This document shows, piece by piece, positions 4,616 through 64,000 of a stretch of 64,000 nt of DNA. Numbering within the stretch: position 1 is the stretch's first letter; every line of letters starts with the position of its first letter. Origin of the DNA: Trichocoleus sp. FACHB-40 (GTDB lineage: Bacteria > Cyanobacteriota > Cyanobacteriia > Cyanobacteriales > FACHB-T130); contig NZ_JACJPF010000050.1 of assembly GCF_014695915.1 (NCBI RefSeq), forward strand, positions 1 through 64,000, written 5' to 3'. The position numbers were made by a program, and so were the translations under genes. Under the pieces are notes generated by a model. The model saw nothing but the letters and a program-made list of their open reading frames with translations. It ran no database searches and was not told the DNA's origin.

Positions 4616-4707
4616 AGGACTTACGCAGTTAATTAGTGAATGCCTGATTCTGTCGTAGGGGCATGGCATTGCCATGCCCCTACAGCGTGTTGACGTGCGT
4701 AAGCCCT
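4616..4707. mobile_element. 92-bp MITE-like element, copy 1
   Basis: Terminal inverted repeats are AGGACTTACGCA (4616-4627) and TGCGTAAGCCCT (4696-4707), with one mismatch between them. A central hairpin, GTAGGGGCATGGC / GCCATGCCCCTAC (4655-4683), fills the middle. The 5-bp sequence CCAAC occurs on both sides (4610-4614 and 4709-4713), each one base outside the terminal repeats, as expected for a target-site duplication. A reverse-complement copy differing at about one base lies at 62501-62592. It has no coding capacity and would depend on a transposase encoded elsewhere. Confidence 0.8.
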
Positions 4708-23864: not shown

Positions 23865-24476
23865 ATGCTCGAAGTTATTTTTGGCAGCCTGTTGGTTGGA
23901 AGTTTGGGAATGGATGCGGTGATGCTGAGCGGATGGATGCGCTGGCAGCAGGTGGTTACACGTCAGCAAGATGAGGAGGAGGAAGAAACTTTGACTCGTT
24001 ATGAATCTAAACAAGACTCCGCACCAGCAGAGTTGCTCTCTTCTAACGGCGGTTCTGTGGGAGCATCCAAAGAACCGCGGATGATGGGCTGGGAATTTAA
24101 AATTGTGCGCGCCTCGTCTGATTTGTTTCGCAGTTCAGCTATTTTTCAAAAGCTGTGTGAAGAAGAGGCGCAATCTGGCTGGATTTTGTTAGAAAAACTT
24201 GACGATCGGCGGGTGCGGTTTAAGCGAGCGATCGCTATGCGGGACATTATTCCATCGGAATCGCTTTCGTATGACCCTTACCGTAGCCATTATGGGACTA
24301 GGTTAAGGCGGCGTACTGGGGTTTATGCGATCGCAGCTGTTATTGCTATGTCTTTACCCGCTTATTTGGGCTATGTTTTGGTGTCGCGGACGCTTAATAA
24401 TTCCTCTCGGACTATCTCACCGCCAGATTCTCCCCCGGAGAAACTGTCCTTCCCAACGCGCCCTCCGGCTCCATAA
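23865..24476 (+). CDS. Conserved cyanobacterial two-helix membrane protein, unknown function
   Basis: 203 aa. An N-terminal hydrophobic segment (LEVIFGSLLVGSLGMDAVML), an acidic linker, a conserved core GWEFKIVRASSDLFR ... LCEEEAQSGWILLEKLDDRRVRFKR (about residues 76-127), then a second helix (about 149-170, YAIAAVIAMSLPAYLGYVLV) and a Pro-rich tail. The core resembles the small alpha/beta DUF4177-like modules that follow 'sloppy' GW-x-L patterns, which is only a loose similarity. Ends before a strong terminator. Confidence 0.7.
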   Translation: MLEVIFGSLLVGSLGMDAVMLSGWMRWQQVVTRQQDEEEEETLTRYESKQDSAPAELLSSNGGSVGASKEPRMMGWEFKIVRASSDLFRSSAIFQKLCEEEAQSGWILLEKLDDRRVRFKRAIAMRDIIPSESLSYDPYRSHYGTRLRRRTGVYAIAAVIAMSLPAYLGYVLVSRTLNNSSRTISPPDSPPEKLSFPTRPPAP

Positions 24477-24484
24477 AAGCATTC

Positions 24485-24513
24485 GAGACGCGATGAACAT
24501 CGCGTCTCTTTTT
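24485..24513 (+). terminator. Intrinsic terminator
   Basis: Perfect 11-bp stem GAGACGCGATG / CATCGCGTCTC with a 2-nt loop, followed by TTTTT, nine bases after the stop codon of the membrane protein gene. Confidence 0.9.
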
Positions 24514-53715: not shown

Positions 53716-54144
53716 TTAATCTTGGATATTTGGGCAAATAGTCCGATCGATGCGGTGAGCGGGTGGACGGTCTTGCCAACCAGAGAGTAACCCCTGTAGT
53801 TCAGCTTTGAGGATTTCGAGCGATTCAATTTGAGAAGCGATCGCATCTACTTTGGAAAGCAGATGCTGTTTTAATGCGCCACAAGGCAACTCCCCCCCGT
53901 CGTGGACAGCTAAAATTTCTTGTATCTCGCCCAAACTGAGTCCGAGAGATTGCGATCGCTTGATGAACGCCAGCCGATTAATTATCTCGCTACTAAACAG
54001 TCGATAGCCGGATTCTGTTCGTTTCACCACTGGGGACAATAGCCCAATATCTTCGTAGTAGCGAATAGTTTTCACCGAAAGACCACTACGATCTGCAACT
54101 TCACCAATTTTCAGCCATTTACCTGAAGTAGAAGTGGCTATCAT
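53716..54144 (-). CDS. MerR-family transcriptional regulator, probably metal-responsive
   Basis: 142 aa. N-terminal winged HTH (LKIGEVADRSGLSVKTIRYYE, about 10-30), dimerisation coil (VDAIASQIESLEILKAELQ), and Cys residues in GGELPCGALKQHL and RTICPNIQD that fit a metal-sensing site of the Zn/Pb/Cu type. It would twist promoters with 19-20 bp spacers. Neighbours: a two-helix membrane protein and hli; no metal exporter is close, so the inducer is unknown. Confidence 0.85.
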   Translation of the reverse strand: MIATSTSGKWLKIGEVADRSGLSVKTIRYYEDIGLLSPVVKRTESGYRLFSSEIINRLAFIKRSQSLGLSLGEIQEILAVHDGGELPCGALKQHLLSKVDAIASQIESLEILKAELQGLLSGWQDRPPAHRIDRTICPNIQD

Positions 54145-54165
54145 TCTTGTATGCTTACAAAGTCT

Positions 54166-54462
54166 TTACTGGCGTGGATTGTGTTTAGATGCACTCAGTG
54201 TAGGTAAAGCAGTCCGGGGGGAAGAAGCGGGGAGATAGCGTTGTGCTTTTTGGGGTTGGGGTTCAACTTCATGTTGCTGCTGCTGCCACCACCGCAGAGC
54301 GATCGCTATCCCCACCATCGCCACTCCAAAGGTCAGCAATGACCAGCTTTGATCCACTCCGCCAATCACTGCATCTACGGCACCAACAATGACAATAAAA
54401 CTGGTAATTGGTTCTTTACGGTAAGCTGACTTCAAAAATCTAGGCATCAAAGCATTCATCAC
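54166..54462 (-). CDS. Small two-helix membrane protein
   Basis: 98 aa. Two hydrophobic segments (ITSFIVIVGAVDAVIGG and WSLLTFGVAMVGIAIALRWW) and a polar, Gln/Pro-rich tail. Unknown function; widespread-looking in cyanobacteria. The start may be at the second Met. 21 bp upstream of merR on the same strand, so they may be cotranscribed. Confidence 0.6.
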   Translation of the reverse strand: MMNALMPRFLKSAYRKEPITSFIVIVGAVDAVIGGVDQSWSLLTFGVAMVGIAIALRWWQQQQHEVEPQPQKAQRYLPASSPRTALPTLSASKHNPRQ

Positions 54463-54681
54463 GACTTACTCTATTCCCTATAGTATTTATTCTAATTTCA
54501 GGTTATCTCATCTAGCAGGCAGGAGCCTGAAAGAAAACAAGCATCACACATCGGTTGCTGCCCGACTGAGCCATATTAGCTCTCGCGGCGCTTCTATTGC
54601 GGACTGAGTGCTGAGTGAATAAGACATATCCTATCGCTTATCTTCTTCCTCATTCCTCAGTCCTAAAGTCAAGATTCCTGA

Positions 54682-54852
54682 TTATTGCAAGCCCAGCCAG
54701 GATAGTACACCTTTCCCGGTGACGTATTCGATAATCACCATCAGCAGAAAGCCAATCATTGCCGCTCGACCATTCAAGCGCTCTGCGTAATCATTAAAAC
54801 CAAACTTTGGCTGCTCCAGCTTGGGAGTGACGGTGGGTTGAAGTTGGGTCAT
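54682..54852 (-). CDS. hli: High-light-inducible one-helix chlorophyll-binding protein (Hlip)
   Basis: 56 aa. Chlorophyll-binding motif E24-x2-N27-x-R29 in YAERLNGRAAMIGFL, the first helix of the LHC superfamily, with a single transmembrane helix (about 28-45) and a KGVLSWLGLQ end. Hlips bind chlorophyll and carotenoid in thylakoids during high light and in photosystem assembly. Small, strongly regulated in known cases. Flanks contain no obvious HLR1 element that I could fix. Confidence 0.92.
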   Translation of the reverse strand: MTQLQPTVTPKLEQPKFGFNDYAERLNGRAAMIGFLLMVIIEYVTGKGVLSWLGLQ

Positions 54853-55374
54853 AGTTTGGCAATCCTTACGTCTTGATGCTTCTAGAGTATTTTACAATCC
54901 TTAATATATTTTAAAGGTGCTAGTCCTTGAGTCAATGGGAAAGCAGGAAATCTCATAAACTTCTGTGATGACCATGACTTAGCTTGCTTTGGGTGGGGCA
55001 GTCACTTCATCTGCAACGGAATTTTGAGATTTTCTGTTTTGGCTTTTAAATGCTTTCCATAGGAGATAGCAATTCCTTTATGCTTTGTGAAGCCAAAGAA
55101 ACCTAGTTTTGATAAAGTTACCGAGTTTGGTGGAAATTGGAACTTTCATAACTCAATTATAATTGTTATAGCAGCCTTCTTAAAGGGCTTCTCCTGAATA
55201 GGAGAGAAAAACTTCACTCTTCGCATAGAGACAAATACACAAAAATTCAGTTAAAGAAGAAAAGTAAAACTTAAACTCTCTATACCTTTATAGAGTAACT
55301 TTTCCAATGTGCAACTAATAAATATTAGTTGTAGATACGGTCAATAATAACAAAGCTAATCATTGAGGTGAGAA
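54853..55374. other. Divergent region between hli and ald
   Basis: 522 bp, no ORF. Contains the hli promoter and, close to ald, two small hairpins (see 55278-55331). Also AGGAGAG-type inverted bits near 55190. Confidence 0.45.
55278..55331 (+). promoter_or_regulatory. Two hairpins or operators upstream of ald
   Basis: CTCTATA (55278-55284) / TATAGAG (55289-55295) and CAACTAATA (55312-55320) / TATTAGTTG (55323-55331). The second has a 9-bp perfect stem and sits 44 bp before the ATG. Candidate regulator sites or leader hairpins. Confidence 0.35.
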
Positions 55375-56466
55375 ATGGAAATTGGCGTTCCCAAGGAAAC
55401 CAAAGATCAAGAATTTCGAGTCGGGTTAAGCCCTAGCAGCGTCCGGGTGCTGTATGAAAATGGTCATGCAGTATTTGTGGAAAGCGGCGCTGGTATTGGT
55501 GCTGGCTTCACCGATGAAGATTTTATTCTTGCTGGGGCGAAAATTGTCTCCCAAGCTAAGGATGCTTGGAGTCGAGAACTCGTAGTTAAGGTGAAAGAAC
55601 CACTCAAGCACGAGTACGACTTTATCCAGAAAGAGCAGCTGCTGTTTACTTATTTACACTTAGCAGCAGATCGAACTTTAACCGAGAATTTGATTGATAG
55701 TGGAGTTTGCGCGATCGCTTACGAAACCGTAGAAATACCAGACAAAAAAACTCTGCCTCTCCTCACCCCCATGAGTATCATTGCTGGTCGCCTCGCCGTC
55801 CAATTTGGGGCAAGATTTCTCGAACGCCAGCAAGGAGGTCGCGGAGTTCTCTTGGGCGGCGTTCCCGGCGTTCGTCCTGGTAAAGTCGTAATTTTAGGAG
55901 GCGGCGTCGTTGGTACAGAAGCCGCAAGAATGGCGGTAGGTGTAGGCGCTCATGTGCAGATTTTGGATGTCAATGTCGAGCGTTTAGCTTATTTGGAAAC
56001 CCTCTTTGGTTCCAGAGTTGAACTGCTTTATAGTAACTCTCTGCAAATTGAAGCGGTTGTCAGAGAAGCAGACTTACTTATTGGTGCAGTTTTAGTCTTG
56101 GGTCGTCGCGCCCCCATCCTCGTACCGAGAAGTTTAGTAAAACAGATGCTTCCCGGTTCAGTAATTGTAGATGTGGCTGTAGACCAAGGCGGATGTGTGG
56201 AGACGCTGCGCCCTACTTCTCACACTAATCCTACATATATAGAGGAGGGTGTTGTTCATTACGGCGTTCCGAATATGCCGGGAGCAGTTCCCTGGACTGC
56301 AACTCAGGCACTTAATAATAGTACCTTACCCTATGTCTTGAAATTGGCGAATCAAGGCATGAAAGCATTAGAATTAGACCCTGCTTTGGCAAGGGGTGTG
56401 AATGTACAGAATCATCGGTTGGTGCATCCTGCTGTGCAGGAGGTTTTCCCAGATTTAGCCCATTAG
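55375..56466 (+). CDS. ald: Alanine dehydrogenase
   Basis: 363 aa. AlaDH/PNT N-terminal domain (GVPKETKDQEFRVGLSPSSV, with Lys/Arg for substrate) and Rossmann NAD domain (VVILGGGVVGTEAARMAVG). Catalyses alanine to pyruvate with NAD; used for ammonium assimilation or alanine catabolism. GAGGTGAG ribosome site. A palindromic element and a terminator lie downstream, shared with topA. Confidence 0.94.
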   Translation: MEIGVPKETKDQEFRVGLSPSSVRVLYENGHAVFVESGAGIGAGFTDEDFILAGAKIVSQAKDAWSRELVVKVKEPLKHEYDFIQKEQLLFTYLHLAADRTLTENLIDSGVCAIAYETVEIPDKKTLPLLTPMSIIAGRLAVQFGARFLERQQGGRGVLLGGVPGVRPGKVVILGGGVVGTEAARMAVGVGAHVQILDVNVERLAYLETLFGSRVELLYSNSLQIEAVVREADLLIGAVLVLGRRAPILVPRSLVKQMLPGSVIVDVAVDQGGCVETLRPTSHTNPTYIEEGVVHYGVPNMPGAVPWTATQALNNSTLPYVLKLANQGMKALELDPALARGVNVQNHRLVHPAVQEVFPDLAH

Positions 56467-56483
56467 ATAATTGATAATGGGAT

Positions 56484-56514
56484 ATTGTAGAGACGTTGTA
56501 TACGTCTCTACAAT
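56484..56514. repeat. Palindromic repeat GTAGAGACG family
   Basis: Arms ATTGTAGAGACGT (56484-56496) and ACGTCTCTACAAT (56502-56514), loop of 5. The same repeat is found interrupted at 62484-62615 and inside cbiG at 63401-63430. Confidence 0.8.
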
Positions 56515-56577
56515 TTGGAAAAAATCCACCAATTACCAAGGGTAAATTTCTATGACTACTGATACTGTAAAACAGTA

Positions 56578-56608
56578 GATGCGATCGCTTTCAAAGAGCG
56601 ATCGCATC
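56578..56608. terminator. HIP1-bearing terminator between ald and topA
   Basis: GATGCGATCGCT (56578-56589) pairs with AGCGATCGCATC (56597-56608), each arm holding a HIP1 octamer. An outer AGTAGA/TCTACT pair extends it. Lies between convergent genes. Confidence 0.65.
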
Positions 56609-56615
56609 AATTCTA

Positions 56616-59267
56616 CTAGGACGATTTTTTCTTAGTAGTAGATGTAGTCTTCTTCGTAGTTGTGGTTTTCTTTGTAGTTCCACTCTTAGCCGTTGACTTG
56701 CGAGTGGTTTTCGTCGAACCTGCCTTTTCTGCTAAAGCTTTCAGTGCAGTTTCGAGCGTTATATTTTCCACCGTTTCCCCTTCTGGAAGCGAAGCATTTA
56801 CTTTGCCATGTTTCACATAAGCACCATAGGGGCCATCGTAGATATTCACTGGTTCATTGTCTGCTGGGTGAGTACCGAGTTCCCGTAAGGGTGCCTTAGA
56901 CTTGCTGCGAGTACCGCCGCGTCCCTTTTTCGGCTCCGACAGTAGCTCTACCGCACGTTCTAGCCCAATTGTCAATACATCATCGCCAGCTTTCAAAGAG
57001 CGGTATTCTTTCCCCTCCTTGCCTTGGTCGTGGACAACGTAAGGGCCAAAACGTCCCAAACCCGCTTGGACTTTGCCGCCTGTAGCTGGGTTAATGCCCA
57101 AATTACGCGGCAAAGACAGCAAACCTACCGCCATATCTAAGGTGACATCTTCAATGTTGACCCCTTTAGGCAGGGAGGCGCGTTTGGGTTTTTTGTTTTC
57201 CTCAGTAGCATCGCCTAGCTGGACATAGGGCCCGTAAGTGCCAATTAGCACATAAATCGGTTCCCCAGTTTCCGGATGCAAGCCTACTTTGTCAGGGCCT
57301 TCGGTTTTCTGCTGTAGCAGCGTCTCGACTAAATCGGCATCAAGGTCTGATGGGGTAAGATCCTTGGGAATTGAGGCTTTGACTGCTTCAGAGCCATTCT
57401 CAGCCTCAATGTAAGGGCCATATTGACCAATCCGGACTTTCGCGCCACCGAGATCGTCTAATTCGATGGTACGGGCATCTGTAGCATCGATTTCGTTTTC
57501 CCTTTCCTTAACTTGGGTTGCTAGACCCTGGTCTCCCAAGTAGAACTTTTGCAGATATGGCAACCATTTAGCTTCCCCAGTCGAGATTTCATCCAGGGTT
57601 TGCTCCATATTGGAAGTGAAGCTGGTATTCACCAAGTCGGGAAAGTATTTTTCTAGCAGCGCCGTGACAGCAAAGGCGGTGAAGGTGGGAACTAAGGCGT
57701 TACCATTCATCTGAGCATAGCCCCGGTCGATAATCGTGCCAATGATGCTGGCGTAGGTGCTAGGACGACCAATCCCTTCGCTTTCTAAGGTTTTTACCAG
57801 AGAAGCTTCGGTGTATCGTGCGGGCGGTTGAGTTTCGTGACCGATGGATTCTAGCTTAGTGCAGTTTGGGCGATCGCCTTTTTTCAGAGAAGGTAAAATT
57901 ACTTCCATGTTTTCCAGTGCTGCCTCTGGATCGTCGGAACCTTCCACGTAGGCGCGTAAAAAGCCATAGAAATCAATCCGTTTGCCACTGGCGCGAAAAC
58001 CAGCGTCTTCCACTTGCAACTGCACAGTAATTTGAGTTTGGCGTGAGTCTGCCATTTGAGTAGCGACAGTGCGCTTCCAAATCAGGTCATAGAGAGCTTT
58101 TTCCCGACCACTCAAACCAGTTTCATCAGGAGTGCGGAAAGTGGCACCAGCAGGACGGATGGCTTCGTGTGCTTCCTGTGCGCCTTTGCTTTTGGTGGTG
58201 TACTGGCGGGGTTCTGGACTGAGATACTCCTTGCCGTACATTTTTTCGACACAACTGCGAGCAGCTGCGATCGCTTGCCCAGACAAATGCACCGAATCCG
58301 TCCGCATATAGGTAATATACCCCTGCTCGTACAAACTTTGAGCAGTCCGCATTGTATCCCGCGCCGATAGGTGCAGTTTTCGGTTAGCCTCTTGTTGCAG
58401 CGTCGAAGTGGTAAACGGTGGCGAAGGTTTGCGAGTAACTGGTTTTTCTTCCAAATCAGCCACTGTCCAAGTTTTATCAGCCAGTCGCGCTTCTAAGCTT
58501 CTGGCTTCCGCTTCCGAGAGCAAAACCACATTGCGACCAGCAACAATTTGTCCTGTAGCTTCATCAAAATCGCTTCCCGTAGCGACTCTAGTTCCTCTGA
58601 AGTTAATAAGCCGCGCCTCAAAAGGTGTCTTATCTTTGCTTAAAGTTGCCTTCAGATCCCAATAAGTACCTTGGCGGAAAGCGCGACGCTGGCGTTCCCG
58701 GTTTACCAACAACCGCACCGCCACAGACTGCACCCGTCCCGCCGATAACCCATAAGAGATTTTCTTCCACAGCAGCGGCGACAGGGTATAACCTACCAGT
58801 CGGTCGAGAATTCGCCGTGTTTCTTGAGCGCGTACTACCTGCTCATCAATACTGCGGCAGTTTTTCAAAGCATCGCGGATGGCTTCTTTGGTGATTTCGT
58901 GAAACACCATGCGCTTAATGGGAACCTTCGGCTTCAGCAGTTGCAATAAATGCCACGATATGCTTTCGCCTTCGCGGTCTTCGTCAGTTGCCAGCACCAA
59001 CTCATCAGCCTCTTTCAAGGCGTTTTTTAGGGTAGTGACTATCTTCTTTTTATCGCTGGGGACAACATACAGGGGTTCAAAATCGGCATCCACATTTACC
59101 CCTAGCTGCGCCCATTTTTCCCCTTTGTAAGCTTCGGGAATTTCTTTGCCAGATTGGGGAAGGTCGCGCACATGACCCATCGACGCCTCGACGCGGTAGG
59201 TGGAGGGCAGAAATTTACTGATGGTGCGTGCTTTGGTGGGGGATTCGACGATGACGAGGGTTGACAT
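56616..59267 (-). CDS. topA: DNA topoisomerase I
   Basis: 883 aa, type IA. Toprim domain with [10 protein letters not shown] (about 92-101), catalytic Tyr about 320 in YITYMRTDS, the DKx4 region RPSTYAS. Instead of zinc fingers the C-terminus has four short repeats of the G-x-YGPYV kind ([50 protein letters not shown]). The very end is Lys/Thr/Ser-rich ([18 protein letters not shown]), a DNA-binding tail. Removes negative supercoils. Confidence 0.95.
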
Positions 59268-59574
59268 GGGAACTTCCGGAATAGCAGCTGGGCTGAACAG
59301 TCTTATTAAATTAATTTATGCCAAATGTCAAGGGATGCGCCCACAGACTCAAGCCTGACGGAGCGCGGGTAAAGCTTGCCTGGAGAAGGTTTTAAGACTG
59401 GCGGTGGCTCGCAAAAAGAGCGGCATATGCCCTTGCGTCGCCAGACTTAATTTAAAGCTATCTCAATGTTTAACTTATATGGAATCTTAATGGCGACCTT
59501 GACGACTTTCTATCCTGTGCCAAAATGGATGCCAACATATAGGCCAAACGCGCCTACCAGTAGGAGCATAAGCG
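59268..59574. other. Divergent region between topA and the 97-aa gene
   Basis: 307 bp. Holds an inverted pair TGGCG/CGCCA around a 40-nt GC-rich segment (about 59400-59450) that looks like a dispersed repeat. No ORF supported. Confidence 0.4.
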
Positions 59575-59868
59575 ATGCAACCGATTCGACAAGGCGATGT
59601 AATTTTACTTTTCGTTGAGCAAACCGAGGGACAAAAGCTATCTCACCTGACTTTAGCGGAAGGCGAGGTGACTGGACACAAGCACCGGATCAGTGACGGA
59701 CAAGCTGAACTCTACGAGGAAAATGGCACCCTGTATCTGCGCGTCCTTTCTGAGACAGCAACTTTAACCCACGAGGAGCATAACGCTATCTCTATTCCTC
59801 AAGGCGATTGGATGGTGCGAATTCAACGGGAATATGAGCCTAAAGGGTGGCGATATGTCGCAGATTAA
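59575..59868 (+). CDS. Small conserved protein, unknown function
   Basis: 97 aa, beta-rich: MQPIRQGDVILLFVEQTEG, then LAEGEVTGHKHRISDGQAEL, then LTHEEHNAISIPQGDWMVRI. I recall this kind of protein upstream of large DUF6745/leucine-rich-repeat-type genes in cyanobacteria. AGGAGC upstream of the ATG is a ribosome site. Confidence 0.7.
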   Translation: MQPIRQGDVILLFVEQTEGQKLSHLTLAEGEVTGHKHRISDGQAELYEENGTLYLRVLSETATLTHEEHNAISIPQGDWMVRIQREYEPKGWRYVAD

Positions 59869-59869
59869 G

Positions 59870-59968
59870 ATGGAGAAACTTACGCTAGAGCAAGAAGCGC
59901 TAATTCCAGTTTATCGCCTGAAGTGGAGAGCGATCGCAACGCTTCTGCTTTTCTTAAAAACAATTTGA
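59870..59968 (+). pseudogene. N-terminal remnant of a DUF6745-like protein
   Basis: 33 codons starting one base after the previous stop. MEKLTLEQEALIPVYRLKW fits what I recall as the start of DUF6745 proteins, which go on for several hundred residues. Here it stops at TGA after ATLLLFLKTI. A shifted frame continues with NNLISLEFRLTKNQ, then TAA, so the gene is decayed. From memory, not searched. Confidence 0.5.
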
Positions 59969-60112
59969 TTAGCTTGGAATTTCGACTTACTAAAAATCAA
60001 TAAATCCCTGAAATCAAAATAGAGGGTACTTTGATAACTGGATTACAGGTATTACTAGCAGTTCAATTTATGAACCTCAAAGAGAGATTGATTTCTCCAA
60101 ACGCGATCGCGC

Positions 60113-60661
60113 TTACAACAAACTTCTCACAGCTAAAGTAAATCCAAGAACCACATCCTCACCATTTAAAACGGCTGTAGCGGGATACTGCGTCACCGAT
60201 CCATCCGCCCGATACACCCAAGCTTGCTGATTTTGGCGGTCAAACAACCATCCCAAACGCACCCCGTTATCGATATACTCGCGCATCTTTGCCTGAAGCG
60301 TTTCTATATCGGTTTTAGAACGAATTTCTATGACAAAATCAGGAGCTAAATTTAAAAATCTATCTTCTTGCTCATCCCAATCTTCTGCTAATCTTCCCCT
60401 AGCAACAAAAGCAGCATCCGGCGATTTAATAGCTGTATTTGCTTTGAAGCCCGTACTGGGGCCAAAAACCTCGCCTAAATCGTGACTTTCCAGCCAACTC
60501 AGCAGATAAGCTCCGGCTTTTGCCTCTCGATTACCGGAAATTCCTCCAGTTGGTGGCATAATTACCAATGTGCCGTCAGCATTGCGCTCAAATTGCAAAT
60601 CGGGATTTTTAGAACTGATGAGGATCAATTCTTTATCCGTAACAGTCCACCAAGACGGCAC
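60113..60661 (-). CDS. Uma2-family putative endonuclease, second copy
   Basis: 182 aa. Uma2 pattern with LQFERNADGTLVIMPPTGG, GPSTGFKANTAIKSPDAAFV, DFVIEIRSKTDIETLQAKM (Glu/Lys core), REYIDNGVRLGWLFDRQN. It differs from the 29.8-kb copy in its N-terminus, so it belongs to another subgroup. Function unresolved. Confidence 0.85.
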   Translation of the reverse strand: MPSWWTVTDKELILISSKNPDLQFERNADGTLVIMPPTGGISGNREAKAGAYLLSWLESHDLGEVFGPSTGFKANTAIKSPDAAFVARGRLAEDWDEQEDRFLNLAPDFVIEIRSKTDIETLQAKMREYIDNGVRLGWLFDRQNQQAWVYRADGSVTQYPATAVLNGEDVVLGFTLAVRSLL

Positions 60662-60892
60662 AATTGCTGTTAACCTGGGATAAATTTTCTGGATTTATCA
60701 ACGCTTATTTGACTTATTTTAGTGTTTAATTAAACACCATCTCCAGATGCGATCGCTTGCGTCTCTACAAGATACCTCCGAGAGCGTCTTGGCAGTCCGC
60801 CCAAAAAAAAACTAGAGCAGACCTCAGCCAGAGACGCAATAATAATTAAGAGTCCCAGACAATAAGCCTGATACCCAAAACCTATATAACTC

Positions 60893-62470
60893 ATGAGTTT
60901 TGCTGAACTTGCAGCCCAGCTGAATGCTGGGACAATATTGCCAGAGGGGATTGTAATTGTCACCCTCTTAGCAGTTCTAGTGGTTGACTTGATTGTAGGG
61001 CGGACATCCTCCCGTGTCACACCCTACATAGCGATCGCAGGGTTACTCTCCGCTATCGTAGCCCTGTACTATCAATGGGATAACACCAACACCGTCTCCT
61101 TCCTCGGTGGCTTTAACTCAGATGCCCTGAGCGTAGTATTTCGCGGTATTATTGCCCTGTCTTGTGCCGTCACCATTTTGATGTCCATCCGCTACATTGA
61201 GCAGAGTGGCACATCTTTGGCAGAATTTATCGGCATTATGATCAGCGCAACCCTGGGGGGAATGTTCCTCTCAGGTGCGAATGAACTGGTGATGATTTTC
61301 GTCTCCCTGGAAACACTCAGTATCTCCTCTTACTTGATGACGGGATACATGAAGCGCGATCCCCGTTCCAACGAAGCAGCGTTAAAATATCTGCTGATTG
61401 GGGCTTCCAGTTCCGCGATATTCCTCTACGGTCTGTCGCTGCTATACGGATTATCCGGAGGAAAGACAGAATTAAGCGCGATCGCCACAGCAATGGCCAA
61501 CGCCAGCACAGATTTATCCTTTGGGTTAGTCATAGCTTTGGTATTTGCGATCGCGGGTATCGCCTTCAAAATTTCCGCCGTTCCCTTCCACCAGTGGACA
61601 CCAGACGTTTATGAAGGTTCGCCAACACCTGTTGTCGCCTTCCTCTCAGTCGGGTCTAAAGCCGCTGGTTTCGCCCTCGCGATTCGCCTAATGGTGACAG
61701 CTTTCCCCCTGATCACCGAACAATGGCACTTTGTCTTCACCGCCCTCGCAGTTTTGAGCATGGTTTTGGGTAACGTCGTCGCCCTCACCCAAACCAGCAT
61801 GAAACGGCTACTCGCCTACTCTTCCATCGCCCAAGCTGGCTTTGTAATGATCGGTTTAATTACCGGAACCGAAGCAGGTTACTCCAGTATGGTTTTTTAC
61901 TTGCTGGTATACCTGTTCATGAACCTGGGCGGCTTCGCCTGCGTGATTCTATTCAGCCTCCGCACAGGCACCGACCAAATTAGCGAATACTCAGGACTGT
62001 ATCAAAAAGATCCGCTCTTGACGCTAGTTTTAAGCATTTGCTTACTTTCTCTGGGAGGAATTCCGCCTCTGGCTGGCTTCTTCGGTAAAATTTACCTGTT
62101 CTGGGCAGCTTGGAAATCTGGTGCTTACGGCTTAGTATTGCTAGGTTTAGTTACTAGCGTCGTCTCCATTTACTACTACATCCGCGTCGTGAGGATGATG
62201 GTAGTTAAGGAGCCACAAGAAATGTCCGAAGCTGTGAAGAACTATCCAGAAATTCGCTGGAATTTACCAGGAATGCGTCCTTTACAAGTGACTTTGGTAC
62301 TGTCGTTAATAGTGACATCTGTAGCGGGAATTCTGTCTAACCCACTGTTTACTTTAGCTAACAGTTCCGTCACCCGCACAACGATGTTGCAAGGATCGCC
62401 TGTGGTTAGCACTCAGACACCAGCGATTAGTCATCAGCCTTCAACCGTTAATATTCAGGTTGGTGGTTAG
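60893..62470 (+). CDS. ndhB: NAD(P)H-quinone oxidoreductase subunit 2 (NdhB)
   Basis: 525 aa, ~14 transmembrane helices. Antiporter-like core: [57 protein letters not shown] (proton-path Lys and His), [15 protein letters not shown]. Membrane-arm subunit of the NDH-1 complex in cyclic electron flow and CO2 uptake. Single gene with its own promoter region. Tail (after about 490) is polar. Confidence 0.95.
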
Positions 62471-62483
62471 GAAATAGCGCAAG

Positions 62484-62615
62484 ATTGTAGAGACGTGAAT
62501 AGGGCTTACGCACGTCAACACGCTGTAGGGGCATGGTAATGCCATGCCCCTACGACAGAATCAGGCATTCACTAATTAACTGCGTAAGTCCTGGTGAAAT
62601 AAAAGCGTCTCTACA
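62484..62615. repeat. GTAGAGACG palindrome interrupted by a MITE
   Basis: Left arm ATTGTAGAGACGT (62484-62496), right arm GCGTCTCTACA (62605-62615). The uninterrupted version is at 56484-56514. Confidence 0.7.
62501..62592. mobile_element. 92-bp MITE-like element, copy 2
   Basis: Reverse-complement of copy 1 (4616-4707), same length. TIRs AGGGCTTACGCA and TGCGTAAGTCCT. GTGAA occurs on both sides (62495-62499 and 62594-62598), one base outside the TIRs. Confidence 0.8.
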
Positions 62616-62999
62616 CCCGTTAAAACAAGTTAAAACTTTGAGAAGTTCTATATTTTAGTCAGTGAAAACTGACTTTAAGTATTAGCCAGAACTTTAGGAC
62701 AGACATTAAGGCTAATTGTAACCCTTGGTACTTGACCTTAAAATAGGTGATATTGGTGGCAAAAATAAAAAATTCATAAAAATAAGCTAATTTTCAGATG
62801 TTAAGGTTTAATAGTGTCTTGATAGTTGCCTAAGCTACGAATTTCAGGTTTTGTGGGGGTTTTTATGTCGATTTGCCACAATGCTTGCAAAGCCTCATTT
62901 ATCCAGCATTCAACTGGTCAACAGTCCCACGCGATCGCTTTGTTGCCCCATTCGCGTTTAACTAATGTAAATTACTCTTATATTACCGACGGCTATTAT

Positions 63000-63272
63000 A
63001 TGAGCAATCTTGTTTATTCCGAGTGGGAGACAATCGGAAGTGTCACCGAACTCGACGAAACCGAAGAGATTTTGAGTAAGGAACCTTACTTTTTCAATGA
63101 AGGCATCCCGATAAAGGCTGATGTTCTGAGAATAGAAAACATTTCGCCAGACGAAGAGGATGAAGATTTCGACGAAGATTTCGACGAAGATGATGAAGAT
63201 TTCGACGAAGATGAAGAATATTTAGATGAGGACGATGAAGATTTTGACGAGGAAGAGGACGAAGAAATATAG
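63000..63272 (+). CDS. Acidic protein with Asp/Glu repeats, function unknown
   Basis: About 90 aa from ATG 63000. Ordered-looking start (MSNLVYSEWETIGSVTELDE, EPYFFNEGIPIKADVLRIE), then an acidic tail of (E/D)DFDED-type repeats. A start at 62865 or 62826 (TTG) is possible. The stop TAG is immediately followed by the ATG of the CbiG gene, so the two are coupled. Unknown family. Confidence 0.6.
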   Translation: MSNLVYSEWETIGSVTELDETEEILSKEPYFFNEGIPIKADVLRIENISPDEEDEDFDEDFDEDDEDFDEDEEYLDEDDEDFDEEEDEEI

Positions 63273-64000
63273 ATGGTATTAGTTTGGCGCGAGTTTCAGC
63301 CGATAGCTGCGATCGCCACTACCCCCAGCGCCGCCAAAATATTACAGCCTCTAACTCAGGCGGCTGGTGCAACCCTTTGGATACCGAATTCCTTAACCAA
63401 TGTAGAGGCGTTGCATTCAACGTCTCTACAGGTTTATCACGGTTCTCTAAAAGACCATTTAACCGAAAATTGGCATCAACATCAGGCGTTTATTTTCTGT
63501 TTAGCAGCAGGGGCGGTGGTGCGACTGATTGCACCTTTGTTACAGGATAAATCCCGCGATCCGGCTGTGGTGGTGTTGGATGAAAATGGTAAATTTGTTA
63601 TTAGTTTGTGTAGTGGTCATCAGGGAAAAGCCGATCAATTGGCAAGAGCGATCGCGCACTCTATTAGTGCAACTCCAGTTTTAACGGGCGCATCATCTGC
63701 ATTAAAATTACCAGGTATTGATATACTCGGAGTTCCCTTTGGCTGGAGTCGCGGCGAGGGAGATTGGACAGAAGTTAGTGCAGCTGTTGCAAGAGGCGAA
63801 CTCGTTCAAGTCATTCAAGAAGCTGGCTCTACCTTGTGGCAAAATCATCTACCCCAACATCCATTTTATTTCGGATTTCCGGAATATACCGCCACTCATA
63901 AAGAAGAATCAGTTTCACCCAAAGCGAGAATCTGGATCAGTGCCGCACAGCGGCAATTTTCCAGAGAATCAGATTTACCAAAAGTACAATGGCATCCTAG
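63273..64000 (+). CDS. cbiG: Cobalamin biosynthesis protein CbiG (partial), probably fused to CobJ
   Basis: 242 codons to the window end, no stop. The CbiG N-terminal pattern is FCLAAGAVVRLIAPLLQDKS, VVVLDENGKFVISLCSGHQG, KADQLARAIAHSISATPVLT, where the conserved His is in GHQG. CbiG opens the delta-lactone of cobalt-precorrin-5A in anaerobic-type B12 synthesis. In cyanobacteria it is often fused to CobJ/CbiH; that part would be beyond the window. Follows the acidic gene with zero spacing. A palindromic repeat lies in frame near residue 45. Confidence 0.85.
   Translation, partial: MVLVWREFQPIAAIATTPSAAKILQPLTQAAGATLWIPNSLTNVEALHSTSLQVYHGSLKDHLTENWHQHQAFIFCLAAGAVVRLIAPLLQDKSRDPAVVVLDENGKFVISLCSGHQGKADQLARAIAHSISATPVLTGASSALKLPGIDILGVPFGWSRGEGDWTEVSAAVARGELVQVIQEAGSTLWQNHLPQHPFYFGFPEYTATHKEESVSPKARIWISAAQRQFSRESDLPKVQWHP
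63401..63430. repeat. GTAGAGACG palindrome inside cbiG
   Basis: TGTAGAGGCGTTG (63401-63413) and CAACGTCTCTACA (63418-63430), one mismatch. It encodes about NVEALHSTSL in the CbiG frame. Confidence 0.7.

Follow-up and report, generated by a model that had tools for sequence, protein, structure and literature searches.

In-frame palindromes are best known from Rickettsia, and small populations and genome decay are often cited as the reason. The RPEs found there are 105–146 bp long and fused in frame in genes (PMC2229807), and the palindromes of Rickettsia and Wolbachia lie both between genes and in frame within unrelated conserved protein genes (PMC2229807; PMC10969869). The GTAG REPs form another class, defined by an unpaired GTAG at one end. 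Cyanobacterial families of this class have been described, including GTAG-12, GTAG-15 and GTAG-16, and some of their copies lie inside ORFs; the accessible text of that paper names no cyanobacterial case of an intragenic REP (Di Nocera 2013; PMC3733652).

Here we follow up a short palindrome in a 64,000-nucleotide stretch of Trichocoleus sp. FACHB-40 (the window), where one copy lies within cbiG. The preliminary description had noted a resemblance of this copy to the Rickettsia elements. The resemblance holds in kind, as the repeat is dispersed, lies both between genes and in frame in unrelated conserved genes, and has 17 host genes; it does not hold in length (28–30 bp versus the 105–146 bp given in PMC2229807), and the likeness is one of features, not of sequence. 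Also unlike RPEs, the repeat is a near-perfect dyad with a free, covarying core, and it occurs in a free-living cyanobacterium rather than in an obligately intracellular host. With the GTAG- and CGTC-tagged REPs, as described in PMC3733652, it shares a terminal GTAG, a size in the 20–40 bp range, mostly tandem and convergent intergenic positions and some intra-ORF copies. Unlike in the GTAG REPs, its GTAG is base-paired at either end, and the source genome has no RAYT gene flanked by it; GTAG-12, GTAG-15 and GTAG-16 were compared by description only.

Two further classes bear comparison. Like MITEs, the repeat has inverted termini and dispersed copies; neither a parent transposon sharing its ends nor a constant target duplication was found, and an inspection by eye of 100 of the 115 arm places in the genome revealed no forward-then-reverse arm pair 0.2–3 kb apart, as expected of an autonomous parent. 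The SDR repeats of Nostoc, on which Elhai reportedly wrote in 2008, are said to be 21–27 nt long, with compensatory stem changes and nested insertions. Ours resembles them, by description and not by sequence, as a very small cyanobacterial repeat with the same two properties. Among the matches listed in a search of mostly open-access literature, there was no report of the GTAGAGACG repeat inside genes.

A dispersed palindrome inside and outside genes

The repeat has the consensus GTAGAGACG-N10-CGTCTCTAC, a 28-bp dyad that reaches 30 bp with an outer T/A. The spaced palindrome, allowing up to three mismatches, occurs at 65 places in the source genome, compared with five for the reversed pattern, and exact arms spaced by 0–30 bases occur 15 times (0 in the reversed control). 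The arm GTAGAGACG itself is found 115 times in the genome, versus 59 for the reversed word, and six times in the window, versus 0.20 expected. This is a dispersed-repeat family and not a product of chance. In 37 copies (leaving out the one in cbiG), the first four left-arm positions read G, T, A and G in 27, 35, 36 and 34 copies, respectively, and the ten core bases are highly variable yet palindromic: on average 3.95 of the five core pairs are Watson–Crick, compared with 2.23 when partners are permuted (maximum 2.78 in 1000 permutations). Exact-arm palindromes are present in 25 of 60 sampled genomes, the source genome included; G035 is rich in them, with 139.

We placed 38 copies of 28 bp (up to two arm mismatches) and another seven with exact arms and a length of 25, 27 or 30 bp. 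Seventeen of the 38 lie in frame within genes that encode a Pfam domain, and 19 lie outside genes. The remaining two are uncertain and were kept out of the intragenic count, one owing to its N-terminal position (L164) and the other because its gene has no Pfam match (L003); none of the seven length variants is inside a gene. As 77% of the window is coding according to a crude gene caller, copies in genes fall below the genes' share. The intragenic copies are read in phase 0 (10 copies) or phase 1 (seven copies) and never in phase 2, where GTAG would put a TAG stop in frame. Their hosts are CbiG, SMC, a transpeptidase/PBP, an NRPS condensation domain, WD40, MFS, a PaO-like Rieske oxygenase, NlpC/P60, two GT2 glycosyltransferases, an M24 peptidase, STAS, an ADP-ribosylglycohydrolase, a PAS/histidine kinase, a kinase-AAA, a TIR-AAA and a TPR-pentapeptide protein.

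The preliminary description had also reported the palindrome in intergenic DNA, and the window does hold a related member at 56,487–56,511, 25 bp long with exact arms and a 7-bp core. A lone arm CGTCTCTAC at 60,760–60,768 (minus strand) is possibly a decayed copy. A left arm GTAGAGACG at 62,487–62,495 (plus strand) and a right arm CGTCTCTAC at 62,606–62,614 (minus strand) probably belong to one split member, with a 29-bp GTAGGGGCATGG...CCATGCCCCTAC palindrome at 62,525–62,553 between them. Viewed as a whole, 62,487–62,614 has facing GTAGAGACG arms 128 bp apart that enclose the GTAGGGGCATGG palindrome and a GGGCTTACGCA/TGCGTAAGTCC pair, an arrangement that looks like nested small repeats. Elsewhere in the window, the 29-bp palindrome at 62,525–62,553 has a near relative of its type at 4655–4683, which reads GTAGGGGCATGGCATTGCCATGCCCCTAC, and 24,482–24,511 reads TTCGAGACGCGATGAACATCGCGTCTCTTT, a decayed 30-bp palindrome directly after the stop of an ORF ending at 24,476.

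The insert in CbiG and its counterparts in other cyanobacteria

The cbiG ORF occupies 63,273–63,998 on the plus strand, with no stop through the window end, where it is truncated; in the whole contig the open frame is 636 aa long. Pfam matches start at residue 62 for CbiG_N (3e-34) and at residue 147 for CbiG_mid (2.9e-14). The stretch 63,401–63,430 reads TGTAGAGGCGTTGCATTCAACGTCTCTACA, of which 63,402–63,429 is the repeat proper, GTAGAGGCG-TTGCATTCAA-CGTCTCTAC; it is one arm base off the GTAGAGACG consensus and has one unmatched core pair. The copy sits in phase 0 of the frame open from 63,273 without breaking it, as described before, and encodes residues 44–53 (VEALHSTSLQ), within one residue of the earlier estimate of about 43–53 and, again as stated there, ahead of the first conserved block. 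An AlphaFold2 model (25 sequences, mean pLDDT of 83.7) places the insert between predicted strands at residues 34–38 and 52–55, with a mean pLDDT of 75 over residues 41–50. The repeat peptide would thus lie mostly in a loop linking two N-terminal strands, with its last two residues at the start of the second strand.

We collected CbiG from 54 of the 60 genomes (source included) and from the best 80 named loci, yielding 109 genes, of which 100 were distinct; one locus with a frame that could not be anchored (L045) was left out of the counts. With the loop taken to span W36 to S58 in the numbering of the window protein, its length is 17–19 residues in 61 of the 100 distinct genes and at least 20 residues in 39; in the window protein it is 23. 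The nearest CbiG found, from Symplocastrum torsivum (76% identity), has an 18-residue loop without the insert, and so does an uncultured Coleofasciculus, second nearest on the tree, have an 18-residue loop. The earlier expectation that close relatives would lack the insert is borne out by these two and needs amending for G002 and G029 (Aphanothece sp. CMT-3BRIN-NPC111), which carry decayed copies in the loop: under a model built without the cbiG copy they score 18.7 and 17.6 bits, respectively, above the maxima of 12.9 and 12.7 bits in 60 codon shuffles each. CbiG of G003 and G004 has GTAGAGACA where the left arm would lie, and its scores of 3.0 and 0.0 bits are not above chance, so at most the left arm is kept. 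A single clade of the source genome with G002, G003, G004 and G029 is not rejected (p-AU 0.553), and the free CbiG tree pairs G029 with the empty G006 (SH-aLRT 94); these results accommodate a single ancient insertion followed by losses as well as repeated insertion.

The preliminary description had held that conservation of these residues across cyanobacterial CbiG proteins would point to a coincidental likeness. They are not conserved, with most loops only 17–19 residues long, and the reading is therefore not refuted on that ground. Three other loops were considered as family members and dropped: that of UBA11370 (L125), a weak likeness at −3.4 bits, and the long loops of G023 (L037) and Microcoleus vaginatus WJT46 (L115), which looked family-like by eye and scored −1.0 and 1.8 bits.

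The strand–strand loop of CbiG is a recurrent landing site that holds unrelated repeats in other lineages. In G059, the same loop contains a GTAGGGGCG-type palindrome, which scores 6.6 bits under the GTAGAGACG model, below the shuffle maximum of 7.9. The G059 genome has 51 copies of that type (up to one mismatch), one of which shares the core and right arm with the loop copy. CbiG of Microseira wollei carries GGGCAAGATGCCCACCCC five times in the loop and three times further down, all in a single phase, and its genome has 73 exact copies. The GGQDAHPT repeat is found in the loop of Microseira, G035 and PMM_0008; G035 has two copies of the related unit and PMM_0008 has one, with three and two exact copies in the respective genomes. 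Recognizable repeats thus occupy the loop in seven of the 100 genes (those of the source genome, G002, G029, G059, Microseira, G035 and PMM_0008).

Repeats also lie elsewhere in CbiG. In a Leptolyngbyaceae MAG (L085), CbiG contains a copy of the GTAGAGACG repeat near residue 351 that scores 22.2 bits against a shuffle maximum of 9.2. It comes after EAAAILAA, and a second cluster in Microseira likewise follows an EAAAI motif. This second cluster, at nucleotides ∼1250–1500 of cbiG in Microseira wollei NIES-4236 (L106), mixes GQxSCLSM and GGQDAHPT units, all of them within one open frame of 783 residues. In G035 (L025), an insert-like EQFPPSLLSPPTLGGKGGR follows PFYF in a variable part of the mid region. 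In G045 (Cyanosarcina radialis; L035), an in-frame GTAGGGGCG-type palindrome lies at nucleotide 664, in a third variable part; it scores 10.4 bits, compared with at most 8.0 in 60 shuffles, and 69 palindromes of this type are present in the genome.

Orthologous sites in other genes and between congeners

We compared 11 intragenic copies besides that of CbiG with up to seven relatives. As in CbiG, the insert is missing in relatives for GT2, the PaO-like Rieske oxygenase, MFS and STAS. Net gains were five codons in the Rieske oxygenase, six in MFS, seven in STAS and eight in the PBP (against G003 and G004), four or five in the ADP-ribosylglycohydrolase and 11 in GT2 (against G029 and G006). For two copies (L162 and L013), the surrounding sequence varies too much for the comparison to be read. 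The scoring model for GT2, SMC, M24 and NlpC contains the source genome's own copies of these (four of the 37), and scores for these genes are therefore slightly biased upward; those for CbiG are unaffected.

The GT2 glycosyltransferase of the source genome has a 33-nt insert, TGTAGAGACG...CGTCTCTACA with three seemingly duplicated bases, so that a 3-base repeat flanks the copy, and this insert is absent in G029 and G006. G003 and G004 have decayed versions of it, and a second copy, adding 24 nt net, is present in G002 and absent in the source genome, G003, G004, G029 and G006. The two decayed versions and the second copy score 21.6, 26.3 and 31.0 bits, respectively, and none of 200 shuffles scored as high. 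In SMC, relics at the site or within 2 nt of it score 13.0 bits in G029 and 16.6 bits in G002 (0 of 200 shuffles as high), with differing cores, and SMC lengths are equal because these two genomes carry relics at the site. The corresponding score in G006 is 11.3 bits, reached by one of 200 shuffles, and G001, G003 and G004 show no SMC relic. A side observation at the SMC loci of G004 (L196) and G003 (L199) is an ACTCAGC-type heptamer repeat, which in G004 takes the place that the palindrome or a relic occupies in other relatives.

Two genes behave differently. The M24 peptidase sequence is conserved in four relatives (29.5 bits in G002, 15.4 in G003, 8.4 in G004, a value that three shuffles reach, and 20.7 in G029), so that the copy is old or the likeness is coincidental. 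For the NlpC/P60 copy, comparison with four relatives revealed neither a net gain nor a relic. Both cases count against the explanation that we propose below.

We also compared 32 sites of G050 with its congener G024. There was no match for 10 sites, a match to one flank for four and a match to both flanks for 18. Of these 18, nine have the element or a relic in both species, six have other sequence in G024 and three are rearranged; none offered a clean empty site or a target rule. Among the nine shared sites, four have common flanks and altered, still mostly palindromic cores, and one has a different core family. At locus L248, the two species share the left flank and differ in the core of the palindrome (CGAAATTTCG versus TTGTATTCAA), as if the cores had been exchanged in place.

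Origin and significance of the embedded repeat

The repeat is probably a small duplicating hairpin whose in-frame copies persist as tolerated peptides. Direct observation covers the family, the in-frame positions and phases of its copies, the empty and filled loops and the relics at orthologous sites. According to this explanation, GTAGAGACG-N10-CGTCTCTAC would be a non-coding dispersed hairpin repeat, multiplied in the source genome and in many related cyanobacterial genomes, with copies that may arise by duplicative movement of the hairpin. To survive inside a gene, a copy would have to alter the length by a net multiple of three and be read in phase 0 or 1; it would then add the decapeptide V-E-T-x-x-x-x-S-L-x or C-R-D-x-x-x-x-x-S-T where the protein tolerates it; in CbiG, the tolerant place would be the loop between the two strands of the N-terminal region. 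The added peptide is presumably functionless, most likely neutral and decaying. The scattered net gains (+5 to +11 codons), which follow no fixed size, and the lack of a clean target rule between G050 and G024 count against simple cut-and-paste movement.

A bolder version of this explanation is conceivable, though we consider it rather doubtful: the element may be gene-compatible, since a 30-bp hairpin plus a 3-base duplication makes 33 nt, so that a fresh insertion would keep the frame by construction, with two of three phases open. It would then, jointly with GTAGGGGCG and other sister repeats, be a steady source of in-frame peptides in cyanobacterial proteins, and preferred landing loops (such as the strand–strand loop of CbiG and the linker that follows its domains) would have been colonized independently by several families.

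The repeat might instead function as a DNA site, either a protein-bound dyad or an extruded hairpin in chromosome biology, with copies selected wherever they are located; we consider this alternative unlikely. The nearly invariant arms, the compensatory changes in the cores, the element's presence in both congeners at half of the two-flank comparisons and the differing cores at the SMC site of the source genome, G029 and G002 would all fit such a role, and selection on DNA could likewise account for the palindromy that cores retain at orthologous sites. Selection of this kind sits poorly with the decay of orthologous copies in CbiG, SMC and GT2 in several relatives and with the 35 of 60 genomes that have no exact-arm palindrome, and we know of no protein that binds the repeat.

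Selection may instead act on an RNA hairpin in the transcript, through mRNA stability, termination or translation control. As RNA, the cbiG copy forms a hairpin of 13 bp with a folding energy of −18.2 kcal/mol (z of −7.11 versus 200 shuffles), and the 25 copies outside genes are placed in a REP-like manner, 13 between tandem, 10 between convergent and two between divergent genes (by the crude gene caller). Selection on mRNA should favor G.T mispairs, whereas the coding strands of the 17 intragenic copies have five G.T, 16 A.C and 26 other mispairs; moreover, no Rfam family reached the gathering threshold in 54,000–64,000 of the window. We regard a role as RNA as highly improbable.

Equally hard to sustain is the idea of a GTAG-type REP mobilized by a RAYT (Y1 transposase), despite the terminal GTAG, the size, the intergenic bias and the existence of cyanobacterial GTAG families (PMC3733652). 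The unpaired GTAG of that definition contrasts with GTAG–CTAC pairing at the four positions in 24, 34, 36 and 34 of 37 copies. The source genome has three Y1_Tnp matches (two with internal stops), and their loci of 3.2–3.3 kb contain no 28-mer within five mismatches of the repeat and only one arm, at one mismatch, among all three. These loci are thus not bordered by the repeat, no mobilizing enzyme was found, and RAYT mobilization in the source genome is disfavored.

Finally, that ordinary CbiG residues resemble the repeat by chance, a notion to which the M24 peptidase lends some color by showing that such sequence can be conserved across relatives, is refuted by the score of the cbiG copy (31.8 bits under the 28-bp model from the 37 other copies, compared with at most 8.9 in 60 codon shuffles of the gene) and by the nearest relatives, which lack the residues.

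Our analysis confirms the original observation and supports its reading as a protein-embedded palindrome. With a small duplicating hairpin as the probable explanation, the repeat can be classed with the protein-embedded palindromes; it is a cyanobacterial variant, short and fully symmetric, for which one CbiG loop is a recurrent landing site. The cbiG insert is neither private to the source genome nor a single curiosity, given the relics in G002 and G029 and the 17 of 38 copies that are intragenic. A free-living cyanobacterium with 17 host genes, among them those for SMC, PBP, the NRPS condensation domain and CbiG, makes an explanation by small populations and genome decay unneeded. Its small size, the ease with which copies can be counted and its presence in 25 of 60 genomes allow gain, phase filter and decay to be traced gene by gene. 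A junk-like DNA repeat thereby contributes short peptides to proteins, and the CbiG loop provides a natural experiment on where a protein can take up random inserts.
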